A stretch of DNA of 52,325 nt from Rhodobacteraceae bacterium MED-G08. GTDB lineage: Bacteria; Pseudomonadota; Alphaproteobacteria; Rhodobacterales; Rhodobacteraceae. The notes under the pieces were generated by a model that saw nothing but the letters and a program-made list of their open reading frames with translations, made no database searches and was not told the origin of the DNA. Positions 6,409 through 25,386 of this stretch are shown here, in pieces. Made by a program: the position numbers and the translations under genes. Each line of letters begins with the position of its first letter. Position 1 is the first letter of the stretch. The stretch is from positions 1 to 52,325 of the forward strand of contig NTKT01000017.1 of assembly GCA_002457055.1 (NCBI GenBank), read 5' to 3'.

Positions 6409-6438
6409 AAATCTACTCTCATTACAAAATTTATGCGC

Positions 6439-7164: not shown

Positions 7165-8298
7165 TCAGTCTACCCTCAAGACACTGTGCAAACCGTGTTG
7201 CAATGTTCTGCAGAAATCACTGCACTTGCGCAGTTGATCTATATCTATCCCTTCATCAGGCTGATGACCGTCGCCATCCATTGAACCAGGACCAATGACT
7301 GCAGTTCTCAAACCAATATTGGCAAAGAAGCCAGCCTCAGTGCCAAAAGCTACTTTGATCGGCCCAGGCACGTTAGTCAGGGCCTTGAGAGACGTCCAAA
7401 CAGGATCAGTCTCATTGGTACTCAGGCCAGGATATTGATAGACAGTAGAAATTTCCATGCTTTCAGAATTAGTATCCAGTTCGTTCAAAATATTAGCCGG
7501 GTCTTCTTTGGTGAGGTGCCGGATTTCAAAACTAACCTCTGCCCTTTCTGGTACAATATTAAGAGCAACACCACCGCGAACAATCCCCGCATGAACAGTA
7601 GAGTATGGAATAGTATAAGCATCATCTCTCGCACCACTTTTAGCAAGCTTTAATTGCAAATCTAAGGTCTCTAGAATAAATTTCGCTGCAACGTGAAGTG
7701 CATTTTTAAAATTTGGAGCAAGAGCTGAATGCCCTGCCTCTCCATAACAAATAGCCTTGTAAGACACTTTTCCTTTATGTCCCAAACAAAGCTGCATCTC
7801 CGTGGGTTCTCCCACGATTACAAGGTCAGGACAGCCAAGAAATGGAACAACTTGGTCGACCATATAGGGAATACCTCTACATCCAATCTCTTCATCCCAG
7901 GATAAGGCAATCATAAAAGGTTTTGCGGGCGGCATATCCCGACACATTCTGGCCTGCGCGAGCACACAAGCCAGAAAACCCTTCATATCAGTGGTGCCAC
8001 GCCCAATTACCCTTTCACCAATGCGCTGAAGTACAAACGGGTCAGAAGTCCAGTCTTGTCCCTCAGTTGAGACCACATCACTATGCGCTGAGTATAAAAT
8101 TCCCCCGTCACCATTACCAAATTTTGCAAGCAAGCCAGCCTTGCGGCCGCATGGCGAGGGAATACGTTTAATTCGGAAACAAGCTGCAGCTAGAAAATTT
8201 TCAACCCAATCAATAAGATCAAGATTGGGTTCGTTTGCGACTGTTTTGAAACCGACAAGCGTTTTGAGTATTTCGATGATATCATTGATGTCATCCAC
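7165..8298 (-). CDS. M20-family deacylase, acetylornithine deacetylase (ArgE)-like
   Basis: A dinuclear-zinc hydrolase of 377 residues that removes an N-acyl group from an amino acid or amine. Metal ligands and catalytic residues are visible: H72 and D74 in YSAHSDVV, D104 in GRGTTDMKGF, the general base E136/E137 in SWDEEIGC, GEPTE, and the C-terminal His in DGDGHQPDEG. The dimerisation insert lies in the middle third. I chose a GTG start at 8298, preceded by AAGGGG; the longer upstream reading would overlap the aldehyde dehydrogenase stop. In this operon it may strip an acyl group from an N-acylated product made by the upstream enzymes rather than serve arginine synthesis. Confidence 0.82.
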   Translation of the reverse strand: MDDINDIIEILKTLVGFKTVANEPNLDLIDWVENFLAAACFRIKRIPSPCGRKAGLLAKFGNGDGGILYSAHSDVVSTEGQDWTSDPFVLQRIGERVIGRGTTDMKGFLACVLAQARMCRDMPPAKPFMIALSWDEEIGCRGIPYMVDQVVPFLGCPDLVIVGEPTEMQLCLGHKGKVSYKAICYGEAGHSALAPNFKNALHVAAKFILETLDLQLKLAKSGARDDAYTIPYSTVHAGIVRGGVALNIVPERAEVSFEIRHLTKEDPANILNELDTNSESMEISTVYQYPGLSTNETDPVWTSLKALTNVPGPIKVAFGTEAGFFANIGLRTAVIGPGSMDGDGHQPDEGIDIDQLRKCSDFCRTLQHGLHSVLRVD

Positions 8299-8314
8299 GG
8301 CTGGCCCCTTAAAG

Positions 8315-9796
8315 TTAATATTTAACCCAAATAGTCTTAAGCGCAGTGTATTTATCAAAAGAGTGAATAGACAAATCTCGGCCAAAGCCAGACTGCTTCA
8401 TACCACCAAATGGAGTCATGGCAGACAGAGCATCCACTGTATTGACGGAAACAGTGCCTACATGCAACTTATCTGACAAATCCATTGCGCGCGCCAAATC
8501 AGACGTCCAAACGGATGCCGCTAAACCATAGACACTTTTATTTGCCATTTCGATAGCTTCATCTTCAGTATCAAATGTTTGGATCGCAAGAACTGGGCCG
8601 AAGATCTCATAGCGTGCTATTGTGGCACCTTCTGGAACATCTGCAAAAATAGTGGGTTGAATAAAAGCATCACTGTCGTTTATTGAAAATCGATCACCAC
8701 CGGTGATTAGCTTAGCCTCTGCTTTGCCAACATTTAAGAACTCTTCAACTTTTTTGGCATGGTTCACGTCGACCATTGCTCCCATGGTCGTTGCTGGGTC
8801 AAGTGGATTACCTTGCTTAATCTTTTCTGCTCTTTCTCTAAGCTTACCAACCATCTCATCTTTAATACTTGAATGTACCAAGAGGCGTGAATTGGCTGAA
8901 CAGACTTCCCCTTGGTTAAAGAAGATTCCAAATGCCGCCATGTCAGCAGCTTTTTCTAAATCCGCATCAGGAAAAATAATATTTGGGCTTTTTCCACCTG
9001 TTTCCAGCCATACTTGTTTCATATTGCTCTCACCGGCATATTTCTGGAAGAGTTTGCCTACAGCTGTTGAGCCTGTAAATACTAGACAGTCCACATCCAT
9101 ATGACGGCCTAAAGCTTGACCGGCATCTTCCCCAAATCCGGGCACAACATTGAGAACACCATCTGGTAGCCCAGCTTCCTTGGCCAGGACTGCAAGGCGT
9201 AGCGCAGAAAGCGGCGATTGTTCTGCTGGCTTAAGTACTACAGAGTTTCCCGTGACCAAAGCCGGTGCTAATTTCCAGGTAGCCATATCTAATGGGAAGT
9301 TCCAAGGCACTACAGCACCGACCACACCCAGCGGAGAACGACGGATCATGGCGATGTCTCGCCCACCTGTTGGAGCAATTTCATCATATATTTTATCAGC
9401 AGCTTCAGCATGCCATTGGAAAAAGAAAGCAGAACCAGGCACGTCAACGTTGACAGTCTCTGAAATAGGCTTTCCCATGTCCAAAGTATCTAAAAGGGCC
9501 ATTTCTGTAACGTTTTCGCGAATAAGTTTTGCTAGATTAAGAATAACTTCTTTGCGCTCGCTGGGAGTTTTTCCAGACCAACGGCCATCCTCGAAAGCAG
9601 TGCGCGCCGCTTTTACTGCCGCGTTAATATCACTACTGTTACCTTTAGCAACATCACATAGTTTTTTGCCGGTAGCGGGATTGATATTAGAAAACGTCTC
9701 ACCACTTCTAGAAGGAACAAAACGCCCGTCTATCCAGCACTCAGTGCAAAAATCTATATTCTTTGCTTTTGAGGTATACTCTTCTAAACTTTGCAT
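8315..9796 (-). CDS. NAD(P)-dependent aldehyde dehydrogenase, PuuC-like
   Basis: Oxidises an amino-aldehyde to the acid. The 493 residues show the full aldehyde dehydrogenase set: PWNFP with N166, the nucleotide-binding TGSTAVGK, general base E265 in LETGGKS, nucleophile C299 in NQGEVCSANSR, and EIFGPV. Overall wording is closest to PuuC, the gamma-glutamyl-gamma-aminobutyraldehyde dehydrogenase of putrescine breakdown, including LETLDxGKPI-like, DPATTMG and the C-terminal LKTIWVKY. GAGGAAAGG precedes the ATG. It follows an aminotransferase gene in the same operon, which would supply the aldehyde from an omega-amine. Betaine aldehyde is a possible alternative substrate given betC downstream. 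Confidence 0.88.
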   Translation of the reverse strand: MQSLEEYTSKAKNIDFCTECWIDGRFVPSRSGETFSNINPATGKKLCDVAKGNSSDINAAVKAARTAFEDGRWSGKTPSERKEVILNLAKLIRENVTEMALLDTLDMGKPISETVNVDVPGSAFFFQWHAEAADKIYDEIAPTGGRDIAMIRRSPLGVVGAVVPWNFPLDMATWKLAPALVTGNSVVLKPAEQSPLSALRLAVLAKEAGLPDGVLNVVPGFGEDAGQALGRHMDVDCLVFTGSTAVGKLFQKYAGESNMKQVWLETGGKSPNIIFPDADLEKAADMAAFGIFFNQGEVCSANSRLLVHSSIKDEMVGKLRERAEKIKQGNPLDPATTMGAMVDVNHAKKVEEFLNVGKAEAKLITGGDRFSINDSDAFIQPTIFADVPEGATIARYEIFGPVLAIQTFDTEDEAIEMANKSVYGLAASVWTSDLARAMDLSDKLHVGTVSVNTVDALSAMTPFGGMKQSGFGRDLSIHSFDKYTALKTIWVKY

Positions 9797-9818
9797 TGTA
9801 GATACCTTTCCTCAAAGT

Positions 9819-10493
9819 TTATTCATCACCTGGCACACCATACGAAGGTGCATCAGTTGGATTGAGCGCGCGCGTTACATAATCATTGGCTTGAGGTTTA
9901 TAAACCTTCCACGCCTGTGCAATCATCAAAATTGGACAATCCTCAGTCCAATCACACCTTAGTTCTGCATATGGCCACCCGTGTGTGTCAACTATGAGCA
10001 AACCTGCCGAATGCAAAGGCCCAGCTTCACCGCCAGCATTTAATCCACTCTGCATGGCTGCAATTAAACGGTCGCCTAAAGCTCCTTCTGTATTTTCAAA
10101 GCCCTCAACCATAGCCTGTGGCACACCAACATCAGCCAAAAGGTTTCCGCCAGCAGCACAGCAAAGACCCTGTATCGCAGTCCAAATACCCAGAGACATT
10201 TCTCCCGAATGTATGCAAGTATTACCATTTTTATCAATCACCAATAACTGACGATAATTGGGGAAAGTTTCGTCAGCAATCGAAGTAGCGACTGCATCTG
10301 AAGCCGAAAACCCTGACTCAAGGTATTCAAGCACCATAGGCCCTAGAGCAGGGTTGGTAATATTTTGCGTCGCGACTGCACCTACACCCGCTTTAGCAAA
10401 GGCACAACGTGCCGCAACTGCAGGTGAGGATGAGGAAATCGCCAATCCGAACTGCCCAGTATCGGCACATTTCGCCACAATAGAAAAAGTCAC
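9819..10493 (-). CDS. DUF1028 family protein (Ntn-hydrolase-like)
   Basis: A 224-residue protein of the DUF1028 family, recognised from FSIVAKxxxTGQFGLAISSSSPAVAARC at the N-terminus, GVGAVATQNITNP, and GEMSLGIWTAIQG. Members have an N-terminal-nucleophile hydrolase-like fold, but to my knowledge no firm reaction is assigned. The gene starts with GTG at 10493 after GAAGGG. It lies between a RidA gene and the PuuC-like dehydrogenase with short gaps, and I recall DUF1028 often sitting with RidA and amide or deacylase genes, so it may hydrolyse an amide intermediate. That role is inference only. Confidence 0.85.
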   Translation of the reverse strand: MTFSIVAKCADTGQFGLAISSSSPAVAARCAFAKAGVGAVATQNITNPALGPMVLEYLESGFSASDAVATSIADETFPNYRQLLVIDKNGNTCIHSGEMSLGIWTAIQGLCCAAGGNLLADVGVPQAMVEGFENTEGALGDRLIAAMQSGLNAGGEAGPLHSAGLLIVDTHGWPYAELRCDWTEDCPILMIAQAWKVYKPQANDYVTRALNPTDAPSYGVPGDE

Positions 10494-10505
10494 CCTAAAC
10501 CCTTC

Positions 10506-10919
10506 TCAGTCTGGAATTACGAAAGTTGCATCTATTTCTACGAGCCACTCTGGGCGCGCCAAAGCTGTCACGCAAAGCCCTGTAGAAACTGGATAAATAC
10601 CTTTCAGGTACTCACCCATAGTTCTATATACTGCCTCGCGATGGCGGGTGTCGGTAATGTAAACAACCACTTTGCACATATCCTCCATTTTACCGCCAGC
10701 TTCGCTTATTAACTGCTGGATATTTTGCATTACCTTATGGGTCTGCTGTACTGGATCATGGCTATCGATATTTTCTGCTGTATCCAGATCCTGAGGGCAT
10801 TGGCCACGAAGGAAAACAGTTGCACCACGGGCAACAACAGCCTGGCACAGGTCATTATCTAGATTCTGTTCAGGATAGGTATCGGCGGTATTAAATTTAC
10901 GAATTCTTTTATGCGTCAT
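10506..10919 (-). CDS. RidA/YjgF-family enamine/imine deaminase
   Basis: A small cytoplasmic protein of 137 residues. RidA proteins hydrolyse reactive 2-aminoacrylate-type enamines and imines released by PLP enzymes. The C-terminal LCVTALARPEWLVEIDATFVI carries the expected arginine and the E-I-D segment of the active site. The start is placed at the ATG at 10919 (MTHKRIRKF) with GGAG upstream; the longer start at 10949 would overlap the monooxygenase gene and add an atypical leader. Its place between PLP and flavin enzymes fits a role in clearing an imine formed in this pathway. Confidence 0.88.
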   Translation of the reverse strand: MTHKRIRKFNTADTYPEQNLDNDLCQAVVARGATVFLRGQCPQDLDTAENIDSHDPVQQTHKVMQNIQQLISEAGGKMEDMCKVVVYITDTRHREAVYRTMGEYLKGIYPVSTGLCVTALARPEWLVEIDATFVIPD

Positions 10920-10933
10920 AGAAGCAAGCTCCG

Positions 10934-12196
10934 CTAAAGTTGAATGCACTCAGCACTGCCTTGGTAGGCAAGATAACCTTGTTGTTTTTGAATATGATCA
11001 ACGATAAATTTAGCATCATGCCAAACTCCCCAAATAAATGAGGATCCTCGGCGTGATTGCCAGGGGAGACCTAGGAAATAAACACCCGGCTCACTCGAAA
11101 TACCACGCTTATGCGAGGGTACATTATCAGCCTCAAAAGCGTCAACTTGAAGCCAACTGTAATCATTGGAAAACCCGGTTGCCCAGAGAATTGTTGTTAT
11201 ATTTTCAGCAAAAACATCAATGCTGCGAATGGGTCGCGTAATACATTCCGGGTCAGAACCAATTTCTCGTGCTTTGGGATCTGGGGGTAAATTTAATCCA
11301 TTTCTGTCTGCATAGGCATCGGCAAGATCAAGTATTGAAAGATAACTTTCGTCTCCTTCCCGAATATTTTCACCCAAATTGTCTGCGAAGGTAAGAATGC
11401 CATTTTCATACGTCTCTGTCAGACCCAAAAGCGTCAATCCTTGAGTTGCAAGATTGCGAAAATCAACGGTTGCACCACCATCGGCTCCTGATACAGCAAT
11501 TGTTGTATGAGTTGATGACGGATTTGCCTCTGCATCCCATAGATTGAGGACGCCTAGCCACCAACAAAAGTCTCGATTACGATAACGGCGTGGCGGTCTA
11601 TCATGGGCTCCCACAGAAAGAAAAATTTTACGCTCAGTCTTCATCAATTCCGCTGTAATCTGAGAGCCAGATGAGCCTGCACCAACTACTAACACATTAC
11701 CTTTTGGTAATTCTTTTGGATTACGATAGGCAGTAGAATGTATTTGTTTTATCCCTTCAATTTCTGGAATGATTGCTGGCACCATTGGCCGCTGAAACGC
11801 TCCAGTAGCTGAAATTACATAAGAAGCTTCAATTACTCCATCAGTGGTATCAACAACGAAACCAGCACCTTTATCCTTACGCTTTACAGATCTTACATCA
11901 ACACCTTCACGGATTGGTGCATTGAACATTTTGGCATAATCAACAAGATAATCAGCAACTTCCTCCTTTGGAACAAAGGCGTCTGGATGTTGGCCCTTGA
12001 ACTCCATGTTCGGAAACCGATCGTGCCATGCGGGACCGTTCGCAACAAGCGAGTCCCATCTCATTGTCCTCCAATGTTCTGCAGTTCGCGCTCGTTCTAA
12101 AACGATATGATTTATATTAGCTTTTGTTAAGTGCTCGCTTGCGGCAATGCCAGCTTGCCCTCCACCAACAACAACAACATCTGTTTTTTCCACCAT
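10934..12196 (-). CDS. Flavin-containing monooxygenase-like NAD(P)/FAD oxidoreductase
   Basis: A 420-residue two-dinucleotide-domain flavoprotein. The FAD-binding GGGQAG lies at about residues 11-16 and the second, NADPH-type GAGSSGSQ, at about 172. The segment following the first domain resembles CzcO/Baeyer-Villiger/FMO-type proteins, with ILWATGFSNDYSWL near the C-terminus corresponding to the ATG motif. Family members oxygenate soft nitrogen or sulfur atoms or carbonyl groups. With an amine importer and aminotransferase next to it, N-oxygenation of the imported amine is plausible, but an exact substrate cannot be set. It is 23 bases from the aminotransferase gene upstream. Confidence 0.82.
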   Translation of the reverse strand: MVEKTDVVVVGGGQAGIAASEHLTKANINHIVLERARTAEHWRTMRWDSLVANGPAWHDRFPNMEFKGQHPDAFVPKEEVADYLVDYAKMFNAPIREGVDVRSVKRKDKGAGFVVDTTDGVIEASYVISATGAFQRPMVPAIIPEIEGIKQIHSTAYRNPKELPKGNVLVVGAGSSGSQITAELMKTERKIFLSVGAHDRPPRRYRNRDFCWWLGVLNLWDAEANPSSTHTTIAVSGADGGATVDFRNLATQGLTLLGLTETYENGILTFADNLGENIREGDESYLSILDLADAYADRNGLNLPPDPKAREIGSDPECITRPIRSIDVFAENITTILWATGFSNDYSWLQVDAFEADNVPSHKRGISSEPGVYFLGLPWQSRRGSSFIWGVWHDAKFIVDHIQKQQGYLAYQGSAECIQL

Positions 12197-12219: not shown

Positions 12220-13584
12220 TCAAAGCGCACTTTGAACTTCCTTGATACTATTACTCATTATATCTACAACCTCATCAATCATTTCTTCGTCCATAATTAA
12301 TGTTGGCGATAAGATTGCAATATTTCCTAAGGGTCTCACAATCAAACCACGCCGCTGCGCTGCACGCGCAATTTTCAGACCAATCTTATCTTCCGGTTCG
12401 AACGGTGTCTTACTGGTTTTCTCTTTAACAAACTCAATTCCCATCATGAAGTGACTACCACGGACCTCACCGACTAGGTCCAAATCTGCCAACTTATGCA
12501 GATTGTTTTCAAAAAGCTTACCAGTTTTTTGCACCCGCTGTGGAATACGCTCTTTCTCCATGAGTGCAATATTAGCTAAAGCTGCAGCTGATGCTGCGGG
12601 GTGACCCGAATAAGTCATGCCATGTAGAAACATAGAACCTTCACCAGAGATAACTTCATGGATCTCATCACTGATAATTGTTGCAGATAACGGCTGATAG
12701 CCTGAAGTCAAACCTTTGGCCGTAGTGATAATATCAGGTTGCACCCCGAAGATATCCTTAGAGGCAAAAAAATGTCCCAAGCGACCAAAAGCAGTCACTA
12801 CTTCATCCGTAATATATTTGATATCATACTCCTTACATAGCTCACCCATTTTCACATGATAGCCTTCTGGCGGTACAATTAGGCCGCCGGCTCCTTGAAT
12901 AGGTTCAGCAATAAAACAAGCAATATTTTCACTGCCTAGCGTCTCAATATGGGACTTAGCATCTTCAAGCAGATAATCCATGTACTGAGCCTCTGTCATA
13001 CCGTTGCCATGCCGCCAGAAGTGTGGACACTTTAAATGATGGACGAGGCCATCAGCCTTATCCCACCCTTCGGCATAAGCCGGGGTTGTCATGGCCATCG
13101 CAAGGTGGGTAGAACCATGGTAGGCACCCTCACGACTAAGCACGAGTTTTTTATTTTTTTTGCCTAACCGATTATAGTAATGATGAAGCATTCGAATTGC
13201 ACTATCGTTTGCAACTGAACCAGAGTTCCCAAAATGTACAGAATTCAAATGACCAGGTGCGAGCGAAGCAACTTTTGCAGCAAGTGTAGCTGCTGTTGGA
13301 TGTGTAAAATTGTAAAAAGTAGAATAATAATCCAGTGTATTTAGTTGATCAGCAATAGCATTGATAATCTCCGTTCGGCGATGTCCTACGTTAACGCACC
13401 AAAGTCCACCAATGCCATCAATCAATTTATTGCCATCACTGTCAGTGACATATGCACCTTCTGCACCAACAATCACAGTACGCGCATCGTTCTGCTTTAG
13501 AGCATTAAGATCTGCAAAGGATTGGATCAAATGAGTATCAGAGGTAAGAATGTCATCTGTGGTTGTTGGGATATCGAGTGTCAT
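12220..13584 (-). CDS. Class III (omega) aminotransferase
   Basis: A PLP enzyme of 454 residues that moves the terminal amino group of an amine or omega-amino acid to pyruvate or 2-oxoglutarate. GSVANDSAIRM and AYHGSTH form the cofactor phosphate region, D260 in YITDEVVTAFGRLG contacts the PLP nitrogen, and K290 in TTAKGLTSGYQP is the Schiff-base lysine. The sequence resembles polyamine:pyruvate (SpuC-type) and omega-amino-acid:pyruvate transaminases. Its start overlaps the stop of the nitrilase gene by four bases, so the two are probably translationally coupled. The product aldehyde would suit the PuuC-like dehydrogenase downstream. Confidence 0.88.
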   Translation of the reverse strand: MTLDIPTTTDDILTSDTHLIQSFADLNALKQNDARTVIVGAEGAYVTDSDGNKLIDGIGGLWCVNVGHRRTEIINAIADQLNTLDYYSTFYNFTHPTAATLAAKVASLAPGHLNSVHFGNSGSVANDSAIRMLHHYYNRLGKKNKKLVLSREGAYHGSTHLAMAMTTPAYAEGWDKADGLVHHLKCPHFWRHGNGMTEAQYMDYLLEDAKSHIETLGSENIACFIAEPIQGAGGLIVPPEGYHVKMGELCKEYDIKYITDEVVTAFGRLGHFFASKDIFGVQPDIITTAKGLTSGYQPLSATIISDEIHEVISGEGSMFLHGMTYSGHPAASAAALANIALMEKERIPQRVQKTGKLFENNLHKLADLDLVGEVRGSHFMMGIEFVKEKTSKTPFEPEDKIGLKIARAAQRRGLIVRPLGNIAILSPTLIMDEEMIDEVVDIMSNSIKEVQSAL

Positions 13585-14360
13585 TTGGTAATAACCTTTC
13601 TGAAATCAGCAAGTTGAGTTGATAATAAAGTTTTTTCAATTTTATTAAGAGAATTTAGGTTGGCGATAAGAAGATTTTCCTCGTTACTACCGGCAGAGGC
13701 AAGAGGCTTTGCATCGGGACCCACAATCGTCGATTTTCCACAAAATGATAGGCCGTTTTCACTGCCACAGTAATTCGCATAAACGATAGTCAAAGCATTT
13801 TCTGATGCACGAGCAGGTACCAGAGTATCACATACTACGCTAAACTTCTCAGGATTGGCTGTTGGCACAAGAATAAGCTGCACTCCCATTTTGGCAAGCG
13901 CAAGAACGTGCTGAGGAAATTCAACATCATAACATATTAGAAGTCCTGTCTTTATCCCTGCTAATTCGAAGGTCACATAGCTGTCTCCAAAGTTAAATAT
14001 CGATTGCTCTATTGCACCCCAAAGCTGAATTTTACGAAAATGGGCTAATTTTTTGCCTGTCCTGTCAAATGTAGACGCACTGTTATAAATGCTGTCCCCT
14101 TCCCGCTCAGCCCAGCCTAGTGTGAGACCACACCCATGCTTTTTCGCCAGTAAGGAAAGTTGAATTTCCCAACTTTCACCTTGCTTTTGGGCCACAGAGT
14201 GATGACTTTTCATTTGATTGTAGCCCGGGAAATATAGCTCTGGAAATACAACCATTTCTACGTTCTTGTCAGCTGCTTTGGCCAGTGTTTTATCAACTTT
14301 GGCCAAAGCACTTTCTATATTCCCCTCAGGTGAGAAGCCTTGGTATGCTGCAACAATCAT
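13581..14360 (-). CDS. Nitrilase-superfamily carbon-nitrogen hydrolase
   Basis: A 259-residue amidase of the nitrilase superfamily. The catalytic triad is seen as E41 (FPELYFPGY), K110 (HFRKIQLWG) and C143 (LLICYDVEFPQ). The size and the YxxGxxxPxY-like YFPGY text suggest an amidase or N-carbamoyl hydrolase, not a true nitrilase. GGAGG stands just before the ATG. It lies directly after the substrate-binding-protein gene and is coupled to the aminotransferase. An N-carbamoylputrescine amidase-like or aliphatic omega-amidase role would fit the polyamine setting, but the substrate is not established. Confidence 0.82.
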   Translation of the reverse strand: MIVAAYQGFSPEGNIESALAKVDKTLAKAADKNVEMVVFPELYFPGYNQMKSHHSVAQKQGESWEIQLSLLAKKHGCGLTLGWAEREGDSIYNSASTFDRTGKKLAHFRKIQLWGAIEQSIFNFGDSYVTFELAGIKTGLLICYDVEFPQHVLALAKMGVQLILVPTANPEKFSVVCDTLVPARASENALTIVYANYCGSENGLSFCGKSTIVGPDAKPLASAGSNEENLLIANLNSLNKIEKTLLSTQLADFRKVITK

Positions 14361-14392
14361 GACCCCTCCTATTTGAGAAAACGTTGGATAAT

Positions 14393-15427
14393 TTACTTCT
14401 TCAAATTGGTCCAGATAGTATCATAGACCGTTTGAACTTCTTGAGAGCATGCTTGCACAAATTCACCTACAGGCGACGCCGGTGGGTTTGATTCAGGCGA
14501 GTTTGCTACTGCATCTGACAGGTGAGGTTCTGTACCTTTGACACCTGCGGTATAAGCTGCATAGTTCGTAACAGCTGCTGCATTCTCTGGCTCTAATAGA
14601 AAATTCATGAACTTTAGTGCGTTGTCACGATTTGGTGCATCTTTTAGCAGAACAACATTGTCCATCCAAACCACGTATCCTTCTTTGGGAAATGCATATT
14701 CAACATTCGCGCCTTCCTCGCGAGCCTTGGCACTGAAACCAGACCAGATCATTCCAACTGATGCGTCACCAGATACAAGTACATCTTTTGCTATATCAGA
14801 ACCAAAACTTGCCCAATGCGGTTTAGCATTCTGTAAAAGCTCATTGAGTGCCTTAAGTTGATCGCGATCAGATGTACATTGTGGGATGCCTAGATACATG
14901 GAAGCAAGAGCAAGTAGCTCACCTTGGCTGTCCAACACATTTATTTTCCCTTGCAATTCTGCAGGTGGGTCAAAAACTATACCCAGAGTGTTGATGTCAC
15001 CTTTATAGTCATCACGATTTACAGAAAAGCTAGTTGAACCCCATTGATACGGGATCGAAGATTTACGCCCCATGTCAAACCCAACATTAACCCATTGATC
15101 CATAATATTACCATGATTTGGCATTTCAGCTTTTGTGAAGGTATCCAGCATGCCATCACCCGCCATGATTTCCACCATATAATCACCAGGAACAGCCACA
15201 TCATAAGTTCCCATTTTCCCAGCCTTAAGAGATGCTAGCATTGCTTCATTGGAGTCAAAGGTATCCATGGTAACTTCGACATCGTATTCTGCCGAAAATT
15301 TATCTAAAAGCTCTTGCGGAATGTATTCAAACCAGTGATAAATAGATAGTTTTCCTTCAGCAGTAGCGATATTTGCTGCCATAGAAAGAGTTAGCGCCGC
15401 AACGCCAAGTTTTATTAGTTTTTTCAT
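14393..15427 (-). CDS. Polyamine-type ABC transporter substrate-binding protein (PotF/PotD-like)
   Basis: A periplasmic binding protein of 344 residues. It starts MKKLIKLGVAALTLSMAANI with a Sec signal peptide cleaved near ATA-EGK, and then LSIYHWFEYIPQELLDKFSAEYDVEVTMDTFDSNE, the typical opening of PotD/PotF proteins. The ATG at 15427 is preceded by GGAG; an upstream in-frame reading has no signal peptide. Unlike most ABC operons the binding-protein gene comes last among the four transporter genes, one base after the potI-like stop. Spermidine, putrescine or a related cationic amine is the expected ligand. Confidence 0.88.
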   Translation of the reverse strand: MKKLIKLGVAALTLSMAANIATAEGKLSIYHWFEYIPQELLDKFSAEYDVEVTMDTFDSNEAMLASLKAGKMGTYDVAVPGDYMVEIMAGDGMLDTFTKAEMPNHGNIMDQWVNVGFDMGRKSSIPYQWGSTSFSVNRDDYKGDINTLGIVFDPPAELQGKINVLDSQGELLALASMYLGIPQCTSDRDQLKALNELLQNAKPHWASFGSDIAKDVLVSGDASVGMIWSGFSAKAREEGANVEYAFPKEGYVVWMDNVVLLKDAPNRDNALKFMNFLLEPENAAAVTNYAAYTAGVKGTEPHLSDAVANSPESNPPASPVGEFVQACSQEVQTVYDTIWTNLKK

Positions 15428-15428
15428 T

Positions 15429-16265
15429 CTAATCTCCTTGTTTGGTTGTAGTCGGGTTTGCCTTTTCCCCCATCCGCCCGACAAAATAGGACAGGGCGAC
15501 AAATCCCACGGACACTGCTAGCAGTAGTGTGGAAATTGCCATTATATTGGGTTTAATTCCTTGTTTAACAGCGCCAAATATTACAGTGGGCAATGTTTCT
15601 ACACCGGCCCCTTTGACAAAGTTTGTAATGATAAAGTCATCTAGCGAAATAATAAATGCTAATAAAAATCCTGATATAATTCCAGGAGCCATCAAAGGTA
15701 AAAGAATTAGGCGGAATGCCTGAAATCTTGTGGCGTAAAGATCCTGTGCCGCTTGCTCGTACACATCCTCAATACCCTGCATGCGGGCCGCAATTGGCAG
15801 ATAAGCAAACGGAATGCAAAAGACTATGTGCGCGATTAGGATTGTAAGGTAACCGGTTGTAAATCCGATTGCAGAAAAGAAGATCAATGTGGCAACTGCA
15901 GTAACAATTTCAGGTACCATCAAAGGTAAATTAATCAGTGCAAAACTCACAGATTTGCCTCTAAAACTTCCTGCACGCAGCATTGCGGTAGCTGCCATTG
16001 TTGCGATTACGGTTGCCGATATTGCAGCCATAACAGCAATTGATACTGAATTTATCGCCGCGGTTTTGAATTTTGGAGCATCTACTCCATAGAATAAATC
16101 GTAGTACCATCGCAACGAGACCGTATTCCATCGCGTGATAGAGTTACTGTCATTAAAGGAATAAACCATAACAATGATTAAGGGTGCATATAATAAAAAT
16201 AGACACAGAAGTGTTAGGGATTTGAAGCCCGTAAAATGGCGCAGATCGACATTCTTCGTAGCCAT
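15429..16265 (-). CDS. ABC transporter permease, PotI/PotC-like
   Basis: Inner-membrane permease of 278 residues with six predicted membrane segments and the EAA loop seen in [28 protein letters not shown]. PotC-type wording includes [11 protein letters not shown], a loop typical of this subfamily. The ATG at 16265 shares a base with the upstream permease stop (TGATG), so translation is coupled. A longer upstream reading was rejected because it adds a Cys-rich leader lying inside the other permease. It pairs with the PotH-like permease in one transporter. Confidence 0.88.
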
Positions 16266-17185
16266 CAGATCTGACCCTTTGTTTGGTTGCGCGCATAAAA
16301 TGTAAGAACAATTAACACAAGAGATAACAATATCATCGACGCGGCAGCACCAAACGGCCAATTTCCTGCGGCACCTTTAAATTGCTCCTCAATTAATGAA
16401 CCTATCATAAAATTCTTAGCTCCCCCAAGTAAATCGGGCGCCAGAAAGGCACCTAAACTAGGAACAAAGACAAGAATACATCCCGCGACTATGCCGGGCC
16501 TTACAGTTGGCAAAATAACTTTAAACAGCGTCACAGTTCGCGAGGCGTAGAGGTCAGCCGCCGCCTCACTTAGAGCAAAATTATAGCGTTCGACGGCGGC
16601 GTAAATAGGAAGAACCATGAATGGTAGATACGAATAGAACAGCCCCAGTTGTACTGCAAAATTTGTGTTAATGATGTGAAAGGGCTCCGAGATCAGTCCA
16701 ATAGATAGAAAAAATTCATTCAAAGGGCCATTATCCCGAATAAGAAACTTCATTGAAATTGTACGTATTAATAAGTTCACCCAATAAGGAATTGTAATTA
16801 AGAAAAGCCAAATCGTTTTGTTCCTTCCTGTCCTCGTGGCAATAAACCACGCAGTAGGAAAACCAATTATTAAGCAACAAAAAGTAGCAAGCCCAGCCTG
16901 CCAAATTGACCGCCAGAAAATACTTATGTAGGTCCATTCTATTACTGGCGGGCTATCTCCGAAAAGTCCTCGATAAAGAAAAAATTGGTCATAAGCAGAA
17001 ATCGAAAATTCCCAAATAACGCCACCGCGAAACTCTTTCGTTAAGAAAGAATAAACCAACATCATAGCGACTGGTATAACCAGGAAAAAACCAATAATGA
17101 TCCACGCAGGAAAGATTAATGGTATACCAAAACCGCTATAGGTTTTGGCTGAGCCTTCGGGGTTTACTTTTGGTAGCTCAGCCAT
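16265..17185 (-). CDS. ABC transporter permease, PotH/PotB-like
   Basis: Inner-membrane permease of 306 residues, with six hydrophobic segments after a cytoplasmic leader. The EAA motif is in [28 protein letters not shown], and [13 protein letters not shown] follows, as in PotB/PotH proteins. Its start shares the TGATG junction with the ATPase stop and its end shares another with the next permease, giving tight translational coupling across the transporter. It forms a heterodimer with the downstream permease. Confidence 0.88.
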
Positions 17186-18261
17186 CAGTCTACCAGTAAC
17201 CGGGCGGAGCTTGCTTCAAAATCAAGCCCTACGGACTGACCCACATTAGGAATTTTAATTTGAGTGGAGTTTTGCATTCTTACCGTTACACGCGAACCGC
17301 TCGTTAGACTGACCTCAATATGAAGGTCGGTTCCAAGATAAATGTGTCGGACTGTCTTGCCCTCCAGCATACCTTTGCCTGAAGCAGTAATTTTAATGCG
17401 CTCAGGACGTATGGATAGATGTCCTGAACCAACAAGCGCACCTTCCGCAGCAGAGCATATGATTTGTGCTCCACCAGGGAGGACGCAAGAACCTTTTCTC
17501 TTTTCAACGTTCGAAACGGTTACATCGATTAAGTTTGTTTCACCTATGAAATCAGCAACAAATTTGTTCTCAGGTGCCTCATAAATTTCTCGAGCAGATC
17601 CAACTTGTTGAACCCGCCCACCCTCAAGAACAGCAATGCGATCAGACATCGTCAGCGCTTCCTCCTGATCGTGGGTGACGAAAATAAATGTTATCCCAGT
17701 TTGGACTTGAATTTGTTTTAATTCGAGGCGAACAGCTTGCCGAAGCTTGAGATCAAGCGCAGACAAAGGTTCATCAAGTAGTAATACCTTAGGGCTTGGG
17801 GCAAGAGCCCTTGCGAGAGCTACTCGTTGTTGTTGACCACCAGATAATTGGCTAGGCATTCTGTCTGCAAAATCAGATAGTCTGACAAGTTCAAGCACCT
17901 CCCCAACTCGGGCTTTAGCTTTAGAAGTATCGTGGCCTAACCGCAGCAAGCCAAACATAACATTATCTGTAACATTCATATGGGGAAATAAAGCATACTG
18001 CTGGAACACGGTGTTTATTGGGCGCTCATTAGGCAATAGATCGGCAATATTCTGACCATAAAGGTGAATTGCACCATTAGTGACCTCTTCGAAACCTGCG
18101 ATCAACCTCAGCAAGGTTGTCTTTCCACAGCCAGATGGCCCCAGTAAGGTAAAAAATTCATTATCACGAATATCTAAGCTGACGCCATTTAAAGCGGTGA
18201 ATGCACCAAAACTCTTAGTTACATTTTGAATATCAACTGAAATTTCTTTGTCTTTAGACAT
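17185..18261 (-). CDS. ABC transporter ATPase, PotG/PotA-like
   Basis: The ATP-binding subunit of a polyamine-type importer, 358 residues. Walker A GPSGCGKTT, the signature LSGGQQQR, Walker B LLLDEPLSALD and the switch histidine in FVTHDQEEALTMSD are all present. The last 100 residues form a TOBE domain (LSIRPERIKI). It is the first gene of a run of closely spaced minus-strand genes that continues to betC, and its start lies 98 bases from the divergent LuxR-type regulator gene, with a palindrome in between. Confidence 0.92.
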   Translation of the reverse strand: MSKDKEISVDIQNVTKSFGAFTALNGVSLDIRDNEFFTLLGPSGCGKTTLLRLIAGFEEVTNGAIHLYGQNIADLLPNERPINTVFQQYALFPHMNVTDNVMFGLLRLGHDTSKAKARVGEVLELVRLSDFADRMPSQLSGGQQQRVALARALAPSPKVLLLDEPLSALDLKLRQAVRLELKQIQVQTGITFIFVTHDQEEALTMSDRIAVLEGGRVQQVGSAREIYEAPENKFVADFIGETNLIDVTVSNVEKRKGSCVLPGGAQIICSAAEGALVGSGHLSIRPERIKITASGKGMLEGKTVRHIYLGTDLHIEVSLTSGSRVTVRMQNSTQIKIPNVGQSVGLDFEASSARLLVD

Positions 18262-18285
18262 TCGATCCCAAAAATTAGATGCGGC

Positions 18286-18348
18286 TATACCCCTAAAACT
18301 TAATATAATATATTAACTTTGGCAATTTGAGGGGTATATACCCCCAAA
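18286..18348. promoter_or_regulatory. Divergent promoter region with palindrome and repeated half-site
   Basis: The stretch between the importer operon and the LuxR-type gene contains the perfect palindrome GGGGTATATACCCC (18331-18344), extended on both sides by partly matching bases (tttga and ccaaa). A second copy of its right half, TATACCCCTAAA (18286-18297), matches TATACCCCCAAA (18337-18348) at 11 of 12 positions, 51 bases apart, about five helical turns. An AT-rich stretch between them could hold promoter elements. This is a strong candidate operator for the adjacent regulator; binding is inference. Confidence 0.6.
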
Positions 18349-18359
18349 GAGGTAAAATA

Positions 18360-19145
18360 ATGCATGTCAAAAACTCCGAGATACTATTGGCAAAAACAAT
18401 CAAGTCATTGAAAAAAAAAACCTTTTCAGAAAGTTTAAATAGGTGGCTTCGCACTTTGGCAAACCACGACAACACTACAATTTTGGCTTACTTTCGCGAT
18501 GAAACACCTCAAATTCTATTAACAGATTCGGAAACTGAAGCTGTGCACCAAAACATGACTCAAGTATATCTTAGTGGCGCTTACTTGCTAGATCCATTTT
18601 ATGAGCTGCACAATTCTAATGCTGATACCGACCTTTATCGGTTGTCGGATATTGCACCAGATCAATTCAGTCGAAACCAATATTTTTTGGAATATTATCA
18701 ACGAACTACAATAATTGATGAACTGGCTTTCCTAATCTGGCCATCACCTAAGATTAGTGTACATGTCTGCTTGGGGCGTGATATTAAATCCAAGAGACGA
18801 TTTTCAATACGAGAATTATCTTTAGCAAAACAAGTAGTTCCAATAGTTGAAACACTTATATGCGAACATTGGGGGAATTTGCGATTTAGTAGTGCAGATC
18901 CAGGAGAGGATACACTACAAAGGATGGTGCGATTAGTCGCTGAAACCCACGGTATCAATTTGACCAAACGGCAGGCAGAAGTGGCACTATTGGTCCTCAG
19001 AGGGCACTCGTCCGCATCAATAGGATTACGGTTAGGCATCTCTCCACAGACCGTTAAAGTATTCCGAAAGCAGTTATATCGAAAATGCAGTATATCGTCT
19101 CAAGCAGAGTTATTTGCTCTTATAACCCCTCTGCTGGTAAACTAA
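18360..19145 (+). CDS. LuxR-type transcriptional regulator
   Basis: A 261-residue DNA-binding regulator. The last 65 residues form a LuxR/GerE helix-turn-helix: LTKRQAEVALLVLRGHSSASIGLRLGISPQTVKVFRKQLYRKC. The N-terminal 180 residues have no family I can name; they are soluble and do not carry a response-regulator receiver motif, so they may bind a small ligand. The ATG at 18360 has GAGG upstream at 18349-18352. The gene is divergent from the polyamine-like importer operon, which suggests local control of that operon, probably with the catabolic substrate as effector. Confidence 0.82.
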   Translation: MHVKNSEILLAKTIKSLKKKTFSESLNRWLRTLANHDNTTILAYFRDETPQILLTDSETEAVHQNMTQVYLSGAYLLDPFYELHNSNADTDLYRLSDIAPDQFSRNQYFLEYYQRTTIIDELAFLIWPSPKISVHVCLGRDIKSKRRFSIRELSLAKQVVPIVETLICEHWGNLRFSSADPGEDTLQRMVRLVAETHGINLTKRQAEVALLVLRGHSSASIGLRLGISPQTVKVFRKQLYRKCSISSQAELFALITPLLVN

Positions 19146-19148
19146 GAG

Positions 19149-19985
19149 TCAATGCTGTCTTTTGACTTTTGTATCCAAGATTAACATTAATGCAGTTACA
19201 AAAACTGATCCAAATAAGCTCAAAATTAAGACGTATAAAAGCGGAACCATTTGCAACAAAATGGCAAATGCAACACAAAAAACTGCCAAGCTTATAGTAC
19301 CAAATATAGCAGAATAAACAACTCCAGTTACAATGCTCTTTCCAAACACCTTATGAATATTGAATGATATTAAAATATACGCGATCGGGAATGCTAGAAG
19401 AACGCCAGATAAGTGTGCGCCTAGTCTTGAGGCAAAAACAGTAACAACAGAAATTATAATCCCACCAACTACAGCTCGTAAAAAAAGTATCAAATCATTT
19501 TCTGATTTCTTATCGACAAGCTCCTTACCAACGAAAAAACTTCCTACAAAACGTGTGACTATCGTTGAAAAGCCAAAGAAAAATACAGCCTGTAACAAAT
19601 TAAAATTAACTTGGTAGAGGCTACTGGCCAGCAAGATCCATATTACCACAGAAACCAACGCGCAGCTCAAAGGTTTAAAAAACTTTGCTAAAATAAGATA
19701 TGCGAGTAAAAAAACCTGCGTAGCGCTCAAAGCTACTAGTGAGTAAAGAGCAGTTTCATACAAAAAGCTCGTATCACTTTCTAGCATAAGAAAATAAAAC
19801 CCTGGACCGAGCCCAACTGGAAGCCCTGCAATAAGTCCCGCCATAGAGGGGCCAAGAGTAACTACTAGTTTAGCTACAAGTATCACAATAAACGCGGCCA
19901 CTATTACCCTTGTGAGCATGGGCACAAGCATAAGCCCGATACTAAGTTCCAATATATTCTCCAAGTTGTGCCGTAAAAAACTCAA
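19149..19985 (-). CDS. Uncharacterised multi-spanning membrane protein
   Basis: I do not recognise the family with certainty. The 278 residues hold about eight hydrophobic segments and two related Gly/Pro-rich motifs, SMAGLIAGLPVGLGPGFYF near residue 50 and HLSGVLLAFPIAYILISF near residue 190, which suggests an internally duplicated transporter-like fold. Its TTG start at 19985 overlaps the CobW-gene stop (TTGA); an ATG at 19931 is an alternative with a weak ribosome site. It is the last gene of the minus-strand hydantoin arm and could be an exporter or metal or metabolite channel. Confidence 0.65.
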   Translation of the reverse strand: MSFLRHNLENILELSIGLMLVPMLTRVIVAAFIVILVAKLVVTLGPSMAGLIAGLPVGLGPGFYFLMLESDTSFLYETALYSLVALSATQVFLLAYLILAKFFKPLSCALVSVVIWILLASSLYQVNFNLLQAVFFFGFSTIVTRFVGSFFVGKELVDKKSENDLILFLRAVVGGIIISVVTVFASRLGAHLSGVLLAFPIAYILISFNIHKVFGKSIVTGVVYSAIFGTISLAVFCVAFAILLQMVPLLYVLILSLFGSVFVTALMLILDTKVKRQH

Positions 19986-22335: not shown

Positions 22336-23793
22336 TTAGACGCCAATAGGCATAAGCTTTGAATCTCGTTTGATAGATCTTGGAGCTATAAGTTCTTTCC
22401 AAGTTGATAATGCAGTATTTGCAGCTGGAAAAGACGGCCGTTCAATATGCTGACCGCGACCAGGTTGCGCAACAGAATTAGTACTTGAATCCCACACGAC
22501 ATCTCCACGTGACATCGTATATCGAGGTAAACCTGAAACTTCGAAACCTTCAAATACGTTGTAATCGATAATTGATTTTTGAGATTTTGCGCTGATGGTT
22601 TTCTCAGCGGAGGGGTCCCATATTACCAAATCTGCATCAGCTCCCTTCATAACGGAGCCTTTCCTCGGGTAAATATTTAAAATCTTTGCAATATTGGTAG
22701 AAGTTATTGCAACAAACTCATTTGGAGTTATTCGGCCACTTCCCACTCCATATGTCCATAGCAATGATAACCGATCCTCTAGACCACCCGTTCCATTTGG
22801 AATTTTGGTAAAATCTCCAACGCCCATTCTTTTCTGCTCTGTTGTGAAAGCACAATGGTCTGTAGCTACAACATGCAAAGATCCTGCAGATAATCCAGCC
22901 CACAGTCCATCTTGATGATACTTATCACGAAACGGTGGCGACATTACCCGTTGTGCAGCATAATCCCAATCCTCATTGAAATATTCGTTTTCGTCGAGTA
23001 GCAGATGCTGTACTAACGGTTCTCCCCAAACACGCTGTCCTTTTTGCCTTGCTCGTCGTATAGCCTCATGCGCATCCTCACTCGAGGTATGAACAACGTA
23101 TAAAGGAACACCCGTAGCATCAGCAATTGTTATTGCTCGGTTTGTCGCCTCACCCTCCACGGAAGGAGGCCTTGAATATGCATGCGCTTCTGGACCACTA
23201 TTTCCCTCCTCCAAAAACTTTTGCTGCAAACTTGCTATTAGATCTCCGTTTTCAGCGTGAACTAAAGGAAAGGCTCCTAACTCTCCGCATCTTGTGAAAG
23301 AGGCATACATTTGATCATCATTGACCATTAATGCCCCCTTATACGCCATGAAATGCTTGAAAGTATTGACACCTTTACTAACAACATCTGACATTTCATT
23401 AAATATTTTCTCAGACCAATTTGTTATCGACATGTGAAAGCCAAAGTCACATGATGCTTGCCTAGTTGCTCGCTCTAACCATTCATCTAATGCAACCAAC
23501 AAACCTCTTTCATCTGGGACGATCATATCTATTATGGTTGTTGTCCCGCCAGAGAGCGCAGCGAATGTACCACTTTCCCACGTTTCTGCTGTCGTCGTAC
23601 CCATGAAAGGCATTTCTAAGTGAGTGTGGGGATCAATGCCTCCTGGCATAACGTAGCAGGAAGCGGCATCAATTATTTCATCACCAGATAAATTGTCACC
23701 AATCTCAGAAATAATAGCGCCATCTATTTTTACATCGGCGGTATAACTTCTATCCGCTGTGAGTACCGTTCCACCTTTAATAACTTTAGACAT
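22336..23793 (-). CDS. D-hydantoinase/dihydropyrimidinase
   Basis: A dinuclear-zinc amidohydrolase of 485 residues that opens 5-substituted hydantoins or dihydropyrimidines to N-carbamoyl amino acids. Metal ligands are H56 and H58 (GIDPHTHLE), the lysine expected to be carbamylated K146 (NTFKHFMAYKG), H179 (LVHAENG), H235 (YVVHTSS) and D312 (VATDHCAFT). Y151 matches the family substrate tyrosine. The ATG at 23793 is preceded by GGAAGGG; the longer reading adds an unsupported leader. It lies 82 bases after the racemase gene. Hydantoinase rather than pyrimidine breakdown is favoured by the D-carbamoylase and racemases nearby. Confidence 0.9.
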   Translation of the reverse strand: MSKVIKGGTVLTADRSYTADVKIDGAIISEIGDNLSGDEIIDAASCYVMPGGIDPHTHLEMPFMGTTTAETWESGTFAALSGGTTTIIDMIVPDERGLLVALDEWLERATRQASCDFGFHMSITNWSEKIFNEMSDVVSKGVNTFKHFMAYKGALMVNDDQMYASFTRCGELGAFPLVHAENGDLIASLQQKFLEEGNSGPEAHAYSRPPSVEGEATNRAITIADATGVPLYVVHTSSEDAHEAIRRARQKGQRVWGEPLVQHLLLDENEYFNEDWDYAAQRVMSPPFRDKYHQDGLWAGLSAGSLHVVATDHCAFTTEQKRMGVGDFTKIPNGTGGLEDRLSLLWTYGVGSGRITPNEFVAITSTNIAKILNIYPRKGSVMKGADADLVIWDPSAEKTISAKSQKSIIDYNVFEGFEVSGLPRYTMSRGDVVWDSSTNSVAQPGRGQHIERPSFPAANTALSTWKELIAPRSIKRDSKLMPIGV

Positions 23794-23875
23794 CTTACAC
23801 CCTTCCACTAGCAAGCACTGCATACTTAATCGAGTCTCTGTACATTAAACTATTCGCGATAACAGAAAATATCCA

Positions 23876-24547
23876 TCACCCATTTGGCACTGCAAGCATC
23901 CCTTCTCCAAGTAAAGCAGCTGCATATACCCCATCAACAACTGGCATATTAAACTCTTTACTAAATGGCTTGGCTAAATGTGCCATTCCTGCACATCCTA
24001 AAGCTATGCTTCCAATCGAATATTCGCGCAGTAAAGAATGGATAATTTCTCGCATCTTCACTTTGGTTTCTTTTGGTTTGTTTTCAAAATCCAAAACAGG
24101 GATGTTACTAGCGTGTACGAAGCTACATTTATCAAGCAGACCATAATTTCTAAGATTATCTTCAATTACTGGAATGGCTTCTGAGACAGTCGTTATAACT
24201 CCGAATTTATCAGCATAAAGTGAACACATTGTAAAAGCTGCCCAGCCTATCCCAATAGTAGGAATTGATATAGTTCTCCTTGCTTCAAGAAGAAATGGAT
24301 CGTCAAAGCACGCTATAACAGCTAATTTTGACTTCGCTTTTTCTGCTTCTTTCAAATTTGAAAACAAAATCGGCTTTGCTTTTTCTGCATCAATTGGACC
24401 CTGTATAGCACTTGGAGCGCCAAAGCATGTTACCCCGGTTACATTTCGACGGTTATTTAAAGCAGAGTTAGCTGACGAAACAATTTTATCAGTCATAGAC
24501 TGTGTTGAATTTGGGTTTACAAAAACAATATCGGTGCTCTGCGTCAA
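23876..24547 (-). CDS. Asp/Glu/hydantoin racemase family protein (first copy)
   Basis: A cofactor-independent racemase of 223 residues that can interconvert hydantoin enantiomers by two cysteines. FVNPNST opens the protein, C80 lies in VIACFDDP and C185 in ALGCAGM, the expected pair. It begins with TTG at 24547, overlapping the permease stop as TTGA, with GGAAAGGG upstream. It is clearly different from the second racemase at 35.9 kb (different flanks around both cysteines), so the two may prefer different substrates. Its place directly before the hydantoinase gene supports a hydantoin substrate. Confidence 0.85.
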   Translation of the reverse strand: MTQSTDIVFVNPNSTQSMTDKIVSSANSALNNRRNVTGVTCFGAPSAIQGPIDAEKAKPILFSNLKEAEKAKSKLAVIACFDDPFLLEARRTISIPTIGIGWAAFTMCSLYADKFGVITTVSEAIPVIEDNLRNYGLLDKCSFVHASNIPVLDFENKPKETKVKMREIIHSLLREYSIGSIALGCAGMAHLAKPFSKEFNMPVVDGVYAAALLGEGMLAVPNG

Positions 24548-25386
24548 ACAAGACCCTTTCCAGCATCAGACCCTTTCTTGTCACGTCTTCTCTGCGATAA
24601 TACAAAAAACGTGAGAAAGAAAACGATGATTAACAGAGAAAATAATGTCGTAAGAGTGCCAAGTGCATATATAACTGGGGTTGTCACATTGGTTGTCATC
24701 CCAAAAATTTCTAACGGCAAGGTGTTGCGACTGCCTGATGTCAACAATGTTCTGGCAAATTCATCATAACTCAGTGTGAAACCAAACAAAGCCACACCTA
24801 TTAAAGAAGGAGCAATTATCGGCAGCACAATCAAACGAAAAACTTGAATTGGACCTGCCCCTAAATCTCTGCCAGCTTCCTCATACGCTTTGTCGAAACG
24901 GTTGAAAACCGCAAACATTATCAGAATTCCAAAGGGAAGCGTCCAGGTTAATTGAGCACCCAATCCTGAAGTAGACCAATGAACTTCCCACCCTAATTGA
25001 GAAAATATCAGGCCAACGCCTAATGACACTAGAATTGATGGAATGACCAAGCTTGCAATGATAAGGTAAAAAAGTGGTGTTGAGCCAAAGAATTTTTTTC
25101 TATATGCCATCCCAGCCCCAACCGAAAATACAACGGTTATCACCATGACCGTCAAACCTAGGATAATACTTCGTTGGAAAGATCCCCAGATATCACCGAC
25201 CATTTGAGTTCTAAATAATTCCTGAAACCAATGCAAAGATGTGCCTTGCATCGGGAACGTTAAACCCCCAGTTGGGCCCTGAAAACTAAGAATACCTATT
25301 GTTATGACCGGGCCGTAAAGAAATACTAAAAACGCAATAAATATTGCAGTTAGTACATAAAAACCTGTAGATCGCTTTTCACCCAA
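24544..25386 (-). CDS. ABC transporter permease, PotC-like (second importer)
   Basis: Inner-membrane permease of 280 residues, six hydrophobic segments, with the EAA loop in YEEAGRDLGAGPIQVFRLIVLPIIAPSL. It starts with TTG at 25386 after a clear GGAG, three bases from the preceding permease stop. It is similar in family but distinct from the permease at 15.4 kb. With the other subunits it would import a substrate for the hydantoin arm. Confidence 0.86.
   Translation of the reverse strand: MGEKRSTGFYVLTAIFIAFLVFLYGPVITIGILSFQGPTGGLTFPMQGTSLHWFQELFRTQMVGDIWGSFQRSIILGLTVMVITVVFSVGAGMAYRKKFFGSTPLFYLIIASLVIPSILVSLGVGLIFSQLGWEVHWSTSGLGAQLTWTLPFGILIMFAVFNRFDKAYEEAGRDLGAGPIQVFRLIVLPIIAPSLIGVALFGFTLSYDEFARTLLTSGSRNTLPLEIFGMTTNVTTPVIYALGTLTTLFSLLIIVFFLTFFVLSQRRRDKKGSDAGKGLV

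Follow-up and report, generated by a model that had tools for sequence, protein, structure and literature searches.

The regulator gene and the divergent operon

The window, i.e., the whole stretch of 52,325 nucleotides which was analysed, contains a GerE/LuxR-type regulator gene and, in the opposite direction, a PotA-type importer operon. The features of the gap between them are collected in Table 1. The G+C fraction of this gap is 0.34, compared with 0.43 for the window.

Table 1. Genes and operator elements around the intergenic gap (window coordinates)
Feature	Position	Strand	Remark
Class III aminotransferase, carbon-nitrogen hydrolase, PotD-like, PotC and PotB genes	12220-17185	-	likely remainder of the divergent operon
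PotA-type ABC ATPase gene	17185-18261	-	first gene of the divergent operon
Intergenic gap	18262-18359		98 bases, between minus-strand potA-like gene and plus-strand regulator gene
H1, ATACCCC	18287-18293	+	outlying half-site, its start 43-45 bp to the left of the palindrome start
Predicted -10 hexamer, TAATAT	18310-18315	-	promoter of the transporter operon, 22 bases from the dyad
Perfect 14-bp palindrome, GGGGTATATACCCC	18331-18344	none	H2 + H3
H2, GGGGTAT (minus strand ATACCCC)	18331-18337	-	left arm of the palindrome
H3, ATACCCC	18338-18344	+	shared by the palindrome (right arm) and the 18-bp dyad (left arm)
Core 18-bp dyad, ATACC-CCCAAAGA-GGTAA	18338-18355	none	arm-8-arm, H3 + H4
H4, GAGGTA	18349-18354	-	overlaps the likely ribosome-binding site of the regulator
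GerE/LuxR-type regulator gene, VqsR-like sensor domain	18360-19145	+	ATG at 18360

The regulator has 261 residues. Its GerE helix-turn-helix domain (PF00196, residues 200-252, E 8.1e-11) scores above the curated cut-off, is matched by all 34 aligned homologues and is also recognised by profile as similar to that of NarL (1je8, a complex with DNA). An AlphaFold2 model computed from 34 sequences has a mean pLDDT of 91.9. The best Foldseek match is the ligand domain of VqsR (5xhx, E 2.0e-9, TM-score 0.83 when normalised by the VqsR chain), and a profile search finds the same domain with an E of 5.8e-19 over profile positions 4-167. Further Foldseek matches are SdiA, RhlR, QscR and TraR, i.e., proteins of the two-domain LuxR fold. 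A receiver domain is absent, the GerE domain being the only Pfam match at E up to 0.001 and the N-terminal domain being VqsR-like. The 20 families which the 34 members match at E up to 1 do not include the autoinducer-binding family PF03472, in a scan in which the HMMER filters remove most matches above about 0.1. A LuxI synthase (PF00765) has no match in the home genome, which is 87% complete, and the control was likewise silent in 14 of 14 genomes. By its domain matches the regulator is a GerE-family protein and, by the Pfam test with PF03472, it is not an acyl-homoserine-lactone receptor. A gene for a membrane-like protein of 278 residues adjoins the regulator on the opposite strand (19149-19985); neither Pfam nor NCBIfam gives a match for it at E up to 0.001.

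The four importer proteins have PotA, PotB, PotC and PotD as best NCBIfam matches, of which only the potA subfamily model TIGR01187 passes its cut-off. The carbon-nitrogen hydrolase matches AguB below the cut-off, and the best PDB match of the aminotransferase is a putrescine aminotransferase (6gwi). Among 14 genome regions which were compared the regulator is present in 12, and in five potA, potB, potC, potD and the aminotransferase gene are divergent to it. Four of those five (G109, G091, G127, G869) carry a nitrilase gene between the importer genes and the aminotransferase gene, as does the window; the other regulator-bearing regions have a partial gene set, some of them ended by contig ends. 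In each of the three plasmid records which encode an aminotransferase more than 60% identical, its gene is divergent to the regulator and adjoins it. A remote member from Phyllobacterium, with a regulator of 31% identity, is located beside genes for agmatine deiminase and N-carbamoylputrescine amidase. Judged from such matches and neighbours, a polyamine-type compound is most likely the substrate.

Following the aminotransferase gene on the minus strand (7165-12196) are a flavin oxidoreductase-like gene and DUF1028-, aldehyde dehydrogenase- and M20-like genes. We named the frames past the flavin oxidoreductase from their sequences; in Salipiger, annotations of DUF1028 and of an aldehyde dehydrogenase are found near the homologues of the first two frames. 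In L206 and L210 the counterparts of the genes in this region lie across the regulator and are transcribed in the regulator's direction, a hint that they are part of the same pathway. A second cluster at 22336-25386 comprises hydantoinase-like, racemase-like and ABC permease genes, the names being read from the sequence; apparently it is another uptake system for a nitrogen compound, in the vicinity of the first.

Conservation of the palindrome and its half-sites

The earlier note on this DNA had described a palindrome in an AT-rich gap of 98 bases and a recurrence of its right half 51 bases away. All of these features are present: TATACCCCTAAA (18286-18297) and TATACCCCCAAA (18337-18348) match in 11 of 12 positions at a distance of 51 bp. 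The helical pitch of DNA is 10.5 bp per turn. The distance thus corresponds to 4.86 turns, and the statement that the repeats are on the same face of the helix is roughly right. Within the window alone palindrome and repeat are mildly unusual and amount to modest evidence. One could well argue for chance on these grounds, as the 52-kb window has five perfect 14-bp palindromes and 41 of 2000 shuffled gaps (2%) contain one, while 53 of 2000 contain a 12-mer repeat of equal quality. We regard the site as real because it is conserved among homologous loci, not because of the window statistics.

The homologous loci were collected with the regulator protein, i.e., without any operator sequence. The search yielded 178 stretches which fit the pattern; 146 of them encode a relative, and the best 80 of these 146 were kept. 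They are mostly from Rhodobacteraceae and include, among others, Thalassospira, Kiloniellaceae, Rhizobiaceae and one Granulosicoccus, a gammaproteobacterium. In 77 of these best 80 loci the regulator is paired with a divergent potA-like gene. Of the palindromes in these 77 loci 73 are exact, three deviate at one position and one deviates at two. The 77 operator regions comprise 76 distinct sequences with a mean pairwise identity, taken over all 77, of 0.99 in the palindrome, 0.92 in H4, 0.74 in H1 and 0.28-0.30 in the two spacer stretches. Conservation in 77 of 77 loci, in 76 distinct sequences and amid diverged spacers, reduces the probability of a chance palindrome and repeat to next to nothing. 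The earlier note would have abandoned its operator reading had the motif been missing next to orthologous regulators; evidently, the motif is conserved there, and the reading passes this check.

The outlying half-site H1 is a genuine, conserved part of the arrangement, as the note had surmised. When the best match within 15-70 bp on the left side of the palindrome is taken as H1, ties being given to the match nearest to 45, ATACCCC is exact in 56 of 77 loci and has at most one mismatch in 72 of 77. A role of H1 as ribosome-binding site of potA was considered and rejected: its distance to the palindrome is nearly constant, its distance to the potA start is variable. H4 had been overlooked. The sequence G(A/G/T)GGTA begins exactly 4 bp past the palindrome in 77 of 77 loci. 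A ribosome-binding site would require neither the GGTA extension nor a constant distance to the palindrome. Together with H3, H4 forms the core dyad, which departs from ATACC-N8-GGTAT in its last base (A), i.e., it has 9 of 10 arm bases, and which is the best site of this type in the window. The arm-8-arm geometry of an operator is present in the window, and the position of the right arm is constant in 77 of 77 loci.

The three loci without a divergent potA gene (L068, L076, L084) have a class III aminotransferase gene in its place, the product of which is 66-68% identical to that of the window. All three have retained the exact palindrome and an H1. One of them has an intact H4, the other two have GGGA in place of GGTA. 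The recognition helix in the 80 loci is TVKVFRKQLY in 76 and TIKVFRKQLY in four.

Does the palindrome operate at the level of RNA, as a hairpin in the regulator leader which controls translation? A short G-C hairpin can indeed form just upstream of the ribosome-binding site. However, the folding of five of five leaders is inside the shuffle range (z -1.21 to 0.80), diverged homologues lose the perfect stem and retain the half-sites, the conserved H1 is 43-45 bp away and outside of the hairpin, and the leftward -10 is constant relative to the palindrome. We consider an RNA element highly improbable.

The exact 14-mer occurs once in the home genome and is present in 13 of 293 genomes, the own included, as a single copy each; the reversed control is present in three of 293. 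In 12 of the 13 genomes it adjoins this regulator (own genome, L116-L126). The exception is a palindrome in G203 (L115, L218) which we have rejected as an operator: it is positioned at the start of a short open reading frame, which we take to be ferredoxin-like, has no regulator and looks like chance. The exact dyad ATACCCCNNNNGNGGTA is located at the regulator site in 10 of 10 genomes chosen for holding the locus, and two of these have one extra exact copy. With up to one mismatch the dyad has 75 matches in the 10 genomes, summed over both strands, versus 95 for the reversed control, and we do not claim a regulon beyond the locus on account of these numbers. The composite of H1 and palindrome exists in two of 398 genomes of the phylum, i.e., in that of the window and in G340. 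In G340 (L127, L219; G340:C1:120061-120119) the spacing is correct, ABC transporter-like genes are nearby, and the regulator homologue is on another contig; this composite may be a distant target or a coincidence.

Another transcription factor which co-regulates the locus could own the operator, since the link between regulator and site is a predicted one and since the G340 composite lies apart from its regulator homologue. Against this, the site remains next to the regulator where the aminotransferase gene replaces potA as divergent gene, operator changes accompany the divergence of the regulator, and the site is near-unique in the genomes tested. A foreign owner is decidedly improbable. The assignment of the site to the LuxR-type regulator, as the note had it, is very probable; a conserved -10 of the transporter promoter had escaped it.

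The predicted leftward promoter and mode of action

On the minus strand TANNNT is found at offset -21 from the palindrome in 37 and at -22 in 32 of the 77 loci, together in 69 of 77, against a background mean of 1.3 of 77 per offset. These offsets correspond to 22 or 23 bases from the dyad. The commonest hexamer is TAGCCT (13 of 69). The AT-rich gap of the window has four other TANNNT on the minus strand, all farther left. A strict -10 at the usual offset is absent in eight of the 77 loci; it is also absent there in the three aminotransferase-type loci and in L139. A -10 at -20 to -22 is further seen in L129-L132, L135, L136 and L220. Scans for a consensus sigma-70 promoter and for a terminator found none. 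A rightward -10 which would serve the regulator gene itself is weak, being present in only 22 of 77 loci, and was dropped for this reason.

Given a spacer of 17 bp, the -35 position would overlap H2. Transcription to the left would start near 18303, 7 bp past the -10, and this would place the centre of the H3-H4 dyad at about -43.5 to -44, i.e., in the position of a class II activator relative to the transporter promoter. H1 would then fall within the predicted transcript, roughly at +11 to +17. H1 and H2 are inverted half-sites which are symmetric about the leftward -10 (18287-18337); no function is known to us for half-sites which frame a -10 in this way.

Starting from the computed conservation, spacing, -10 position, co-variation with the recognition helix and operon context, we infer binding, activation, autorepression, a ligand and a role for H1 as follows. 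The site probably is a compound operator of the adjacent GerE/LuxR-type regulator, a locally acting, ligand-responsive, class II-like activator site for the divergent polyamine-type operon which is also autoregulated. A regulator dimer would bind the 18-bp dyad through the helix TVKVFRKQLY, and the abutting upstream half-site H2, which completes the palindrome, is probably bound, too. Sitting beside and over a poor -35 of the leftward promoter, the dimer would recruit RNA polymerase to the potABCD-nitrilase-aminotransferase operon, and activation would ensue when the VqsR-like domain senses a polyamine-type small molecule. The same occupancy would cover the leader and the ribosome-binding site of the regulator and probably limit its own synthesis. 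H1, as the counterpart of H2 across the -10, probably takes a second subunit which tunes the balance. Looping or cooperativity through H1, as proposed in the earlier note, is possible.

The same operator and regulator may be imagined in the service of repression: the dimer would block both promoters, a polyamine-type ligand would release it and H1 would serve a repression loop. The overlap of the palindrome with the -35, the location of H1 within the predicted leftward leader at a nearly constant distance and the coverage of the regulator's likely ribosome-binding site by H4 would all suit a repressor. Yet the lack of a consensus promoter implies a poor -35, which suits an activator, and the spacing between dyad and -10 is held in diverged members and in a Halomonas plasmid which has no palindrome. 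Further, activation is the role of DmfR, the LuxR-family protein of comparable genes (PMC4543880). The position of the dyad centre near -44 also agrees with that of NarL sites: at ogt NarL acts through sites centred at -44.5 and -77.5, and the native promoter needs both (PMC7419079). We consider repression unlikely.

A two-register switch is an equally doubtful proposition. Here, the dimer would occupy either the outward pair H2 and H3 or the inward pair H3 and H4; the registers would be mutually exclusive via the shared H3, and the ligand would choose between them. In one register, with H1, the promoter would be kept shut; in the other the operon would be activated and the regulator silenced. 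Such a switch would explain why alphaproteobacteria and Granulosicoccus keep the half-sites amid free spacers and why remote members have only the dyad and the -10.

Distant family members and known systems

We examined a distant set of 48 homologues, 44 of which are 29-57% identical to the nearest row of alignment A1, the other four being rows of A1 or close to them; L152 was left out as its upstream region could not be placed. Exact ATACC-N8-GGTAT is located upstream in seven of the 48. Other spacers (5, 22) occur at most once each and shuffles average 0.01; this spacer test is specific and sharper, but not blind. The seven bearers are not independent, for six belong to one family, and a single genus accounts for five of the six. 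In 39 of the 48 no ATACC-N8-GGTAT is found upstream, not even in the degenerate form tried. A blind inverted-repeat test with 49 distant homologues gave 17 for a spacer of 8 compared with 10.3 +/- 2.6, but 19 for a spacer of 12, and so is not clean. The palindrome which the earlier note had singled out is real, yet its half-sites face outward whereas some distant homologues keep the inward arrangement.

Six of the seven exact distant homologues, which do not have the full palindrome, possess a TANNNT 21-23 bases from the dyad on the side away from the regulator, i.e., at 23 bases in L226, L227, L230, L232 and L233 and at 21 in L231. Such a spacing is not seen in L139, and the degenerate dyads of L108 and L145 have no TANNNT within 45 bases. 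In a plasmid of Halomonas sp. PA16-9 the best dyad in 12.7 kb is ATACCCCAATGGGGATAT (L247:9586-9603) with 9 of 10 arm bases and without a full palindrome. It is positioned just upstream of an aminotransferase gene (48% identical; the match begins with query residue 18, aligned at 9742), and a TAGCCT is found 23 bases from the dyad towards this gene. The regulator homologue (33% identical, 6004-6729) is 3 kb off the dyad. Dyad and -10 of Halomonas are a candidate for the minimal form of the operator. In the Phyllobacterium member no dyad in 12.7 kb exceeds 7 of 10 arm bases, and none is clear.

Two members from Ensifer and Rhizobium (L132, L136; 38-39% identical) lie beside N,N-dimethylformamidase genes. 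In these and in an unannotated Rhizobium leguminosarum record (L135, 41% identical) the layout is kept and the half-sites are altered: ATAACCC is H1 and H3 in L135 and L136 and H1 alone in L132, and all three have the -10 at offset -20. Members with the helix TVRIHRRNIY or TVKIHRKNIY have different upstream sequences. In L145, L149, L142, L143, L108 and L228, which have other helices, related inward dyads were noticed, e.g., ATATCCC...GGGATAT, possibly a series for reading the DNA code of the family.

An earlier description of this operator was not found in the open-licence literature of PubMed Central, nor was the 14-mer string; shorter strings occur there in six papers, all off-subject as judged by title and abstract. 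The site appears to be a near-invariant operator signature for a VqsR-like, LuxR-type family which apparently senses metabolites and not quorum signals. It is tied to an uptake and breakdown operon of polyamine type in marine Rhodobacteraceae and other proteobacteria and makes the predicted target and promoter of the regulator directly testable. Operator variation alongside helix variation offers a natural series from which the DNA code of the family may be deduced.

With VqsR of Pseudomonas aeruginosa the regulator shares the sensor domain, recognised by profile and by Foldseek (5xhx). The window dyad has the arm-8-arm geometry of TCGCC-N8-GGCGA, which we take to be the VqsR target motif. In contrast, the half-site sequence differs, and the window regulator has an operon for transport and catabolism as its neighbour. 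VqsR acts in quorum-sensing control, where it binds to the promoter of qscR and represses it (PMC4211393).

The acyl-homoserine-lactone receptors of the LuxR type have the two-domain LuxR fold and a dyad-symmetric operator in common with the window system. They differ from it in that the window family has no PF03472 match in its 34 members and resides in a metabolic neighbourhood. The lux box has been characterised as a dyad-symmetric operator and PF03472 as the domain which defines such receptors (PMC10134790).

The NarL/FixJ proteins share the GerE DNA-binding domain; NarL itself uses inverted heptamers (7-2-7 sites) and a site centred at -44.5. The NarL consensus has the geometry TACC-N8-GGTA. 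Unlike these proteins the window regulator has no receiver domain, and its operator adds an outward abutting half-site and a distant one. A NarL dimer binds inverted heptamers, and single heptamers are bound as well (PMC7419079, PMC2718512).

The likeness to DmfR of Paracoccus aminophilus plasmid pAMI2 is one of family and gene context. DmfR is a LuxR-family protein of amide degradation genes and activates the dimethylformamidase genes dmfA1A2 when substrate is present (PMC4543880). Two members here share the operator layout of the window and have N,N-dimethylformamidase genes divergent to them. The gene context and promoter layout of the window fit such a DmfR-like, substrate-responsive activator.
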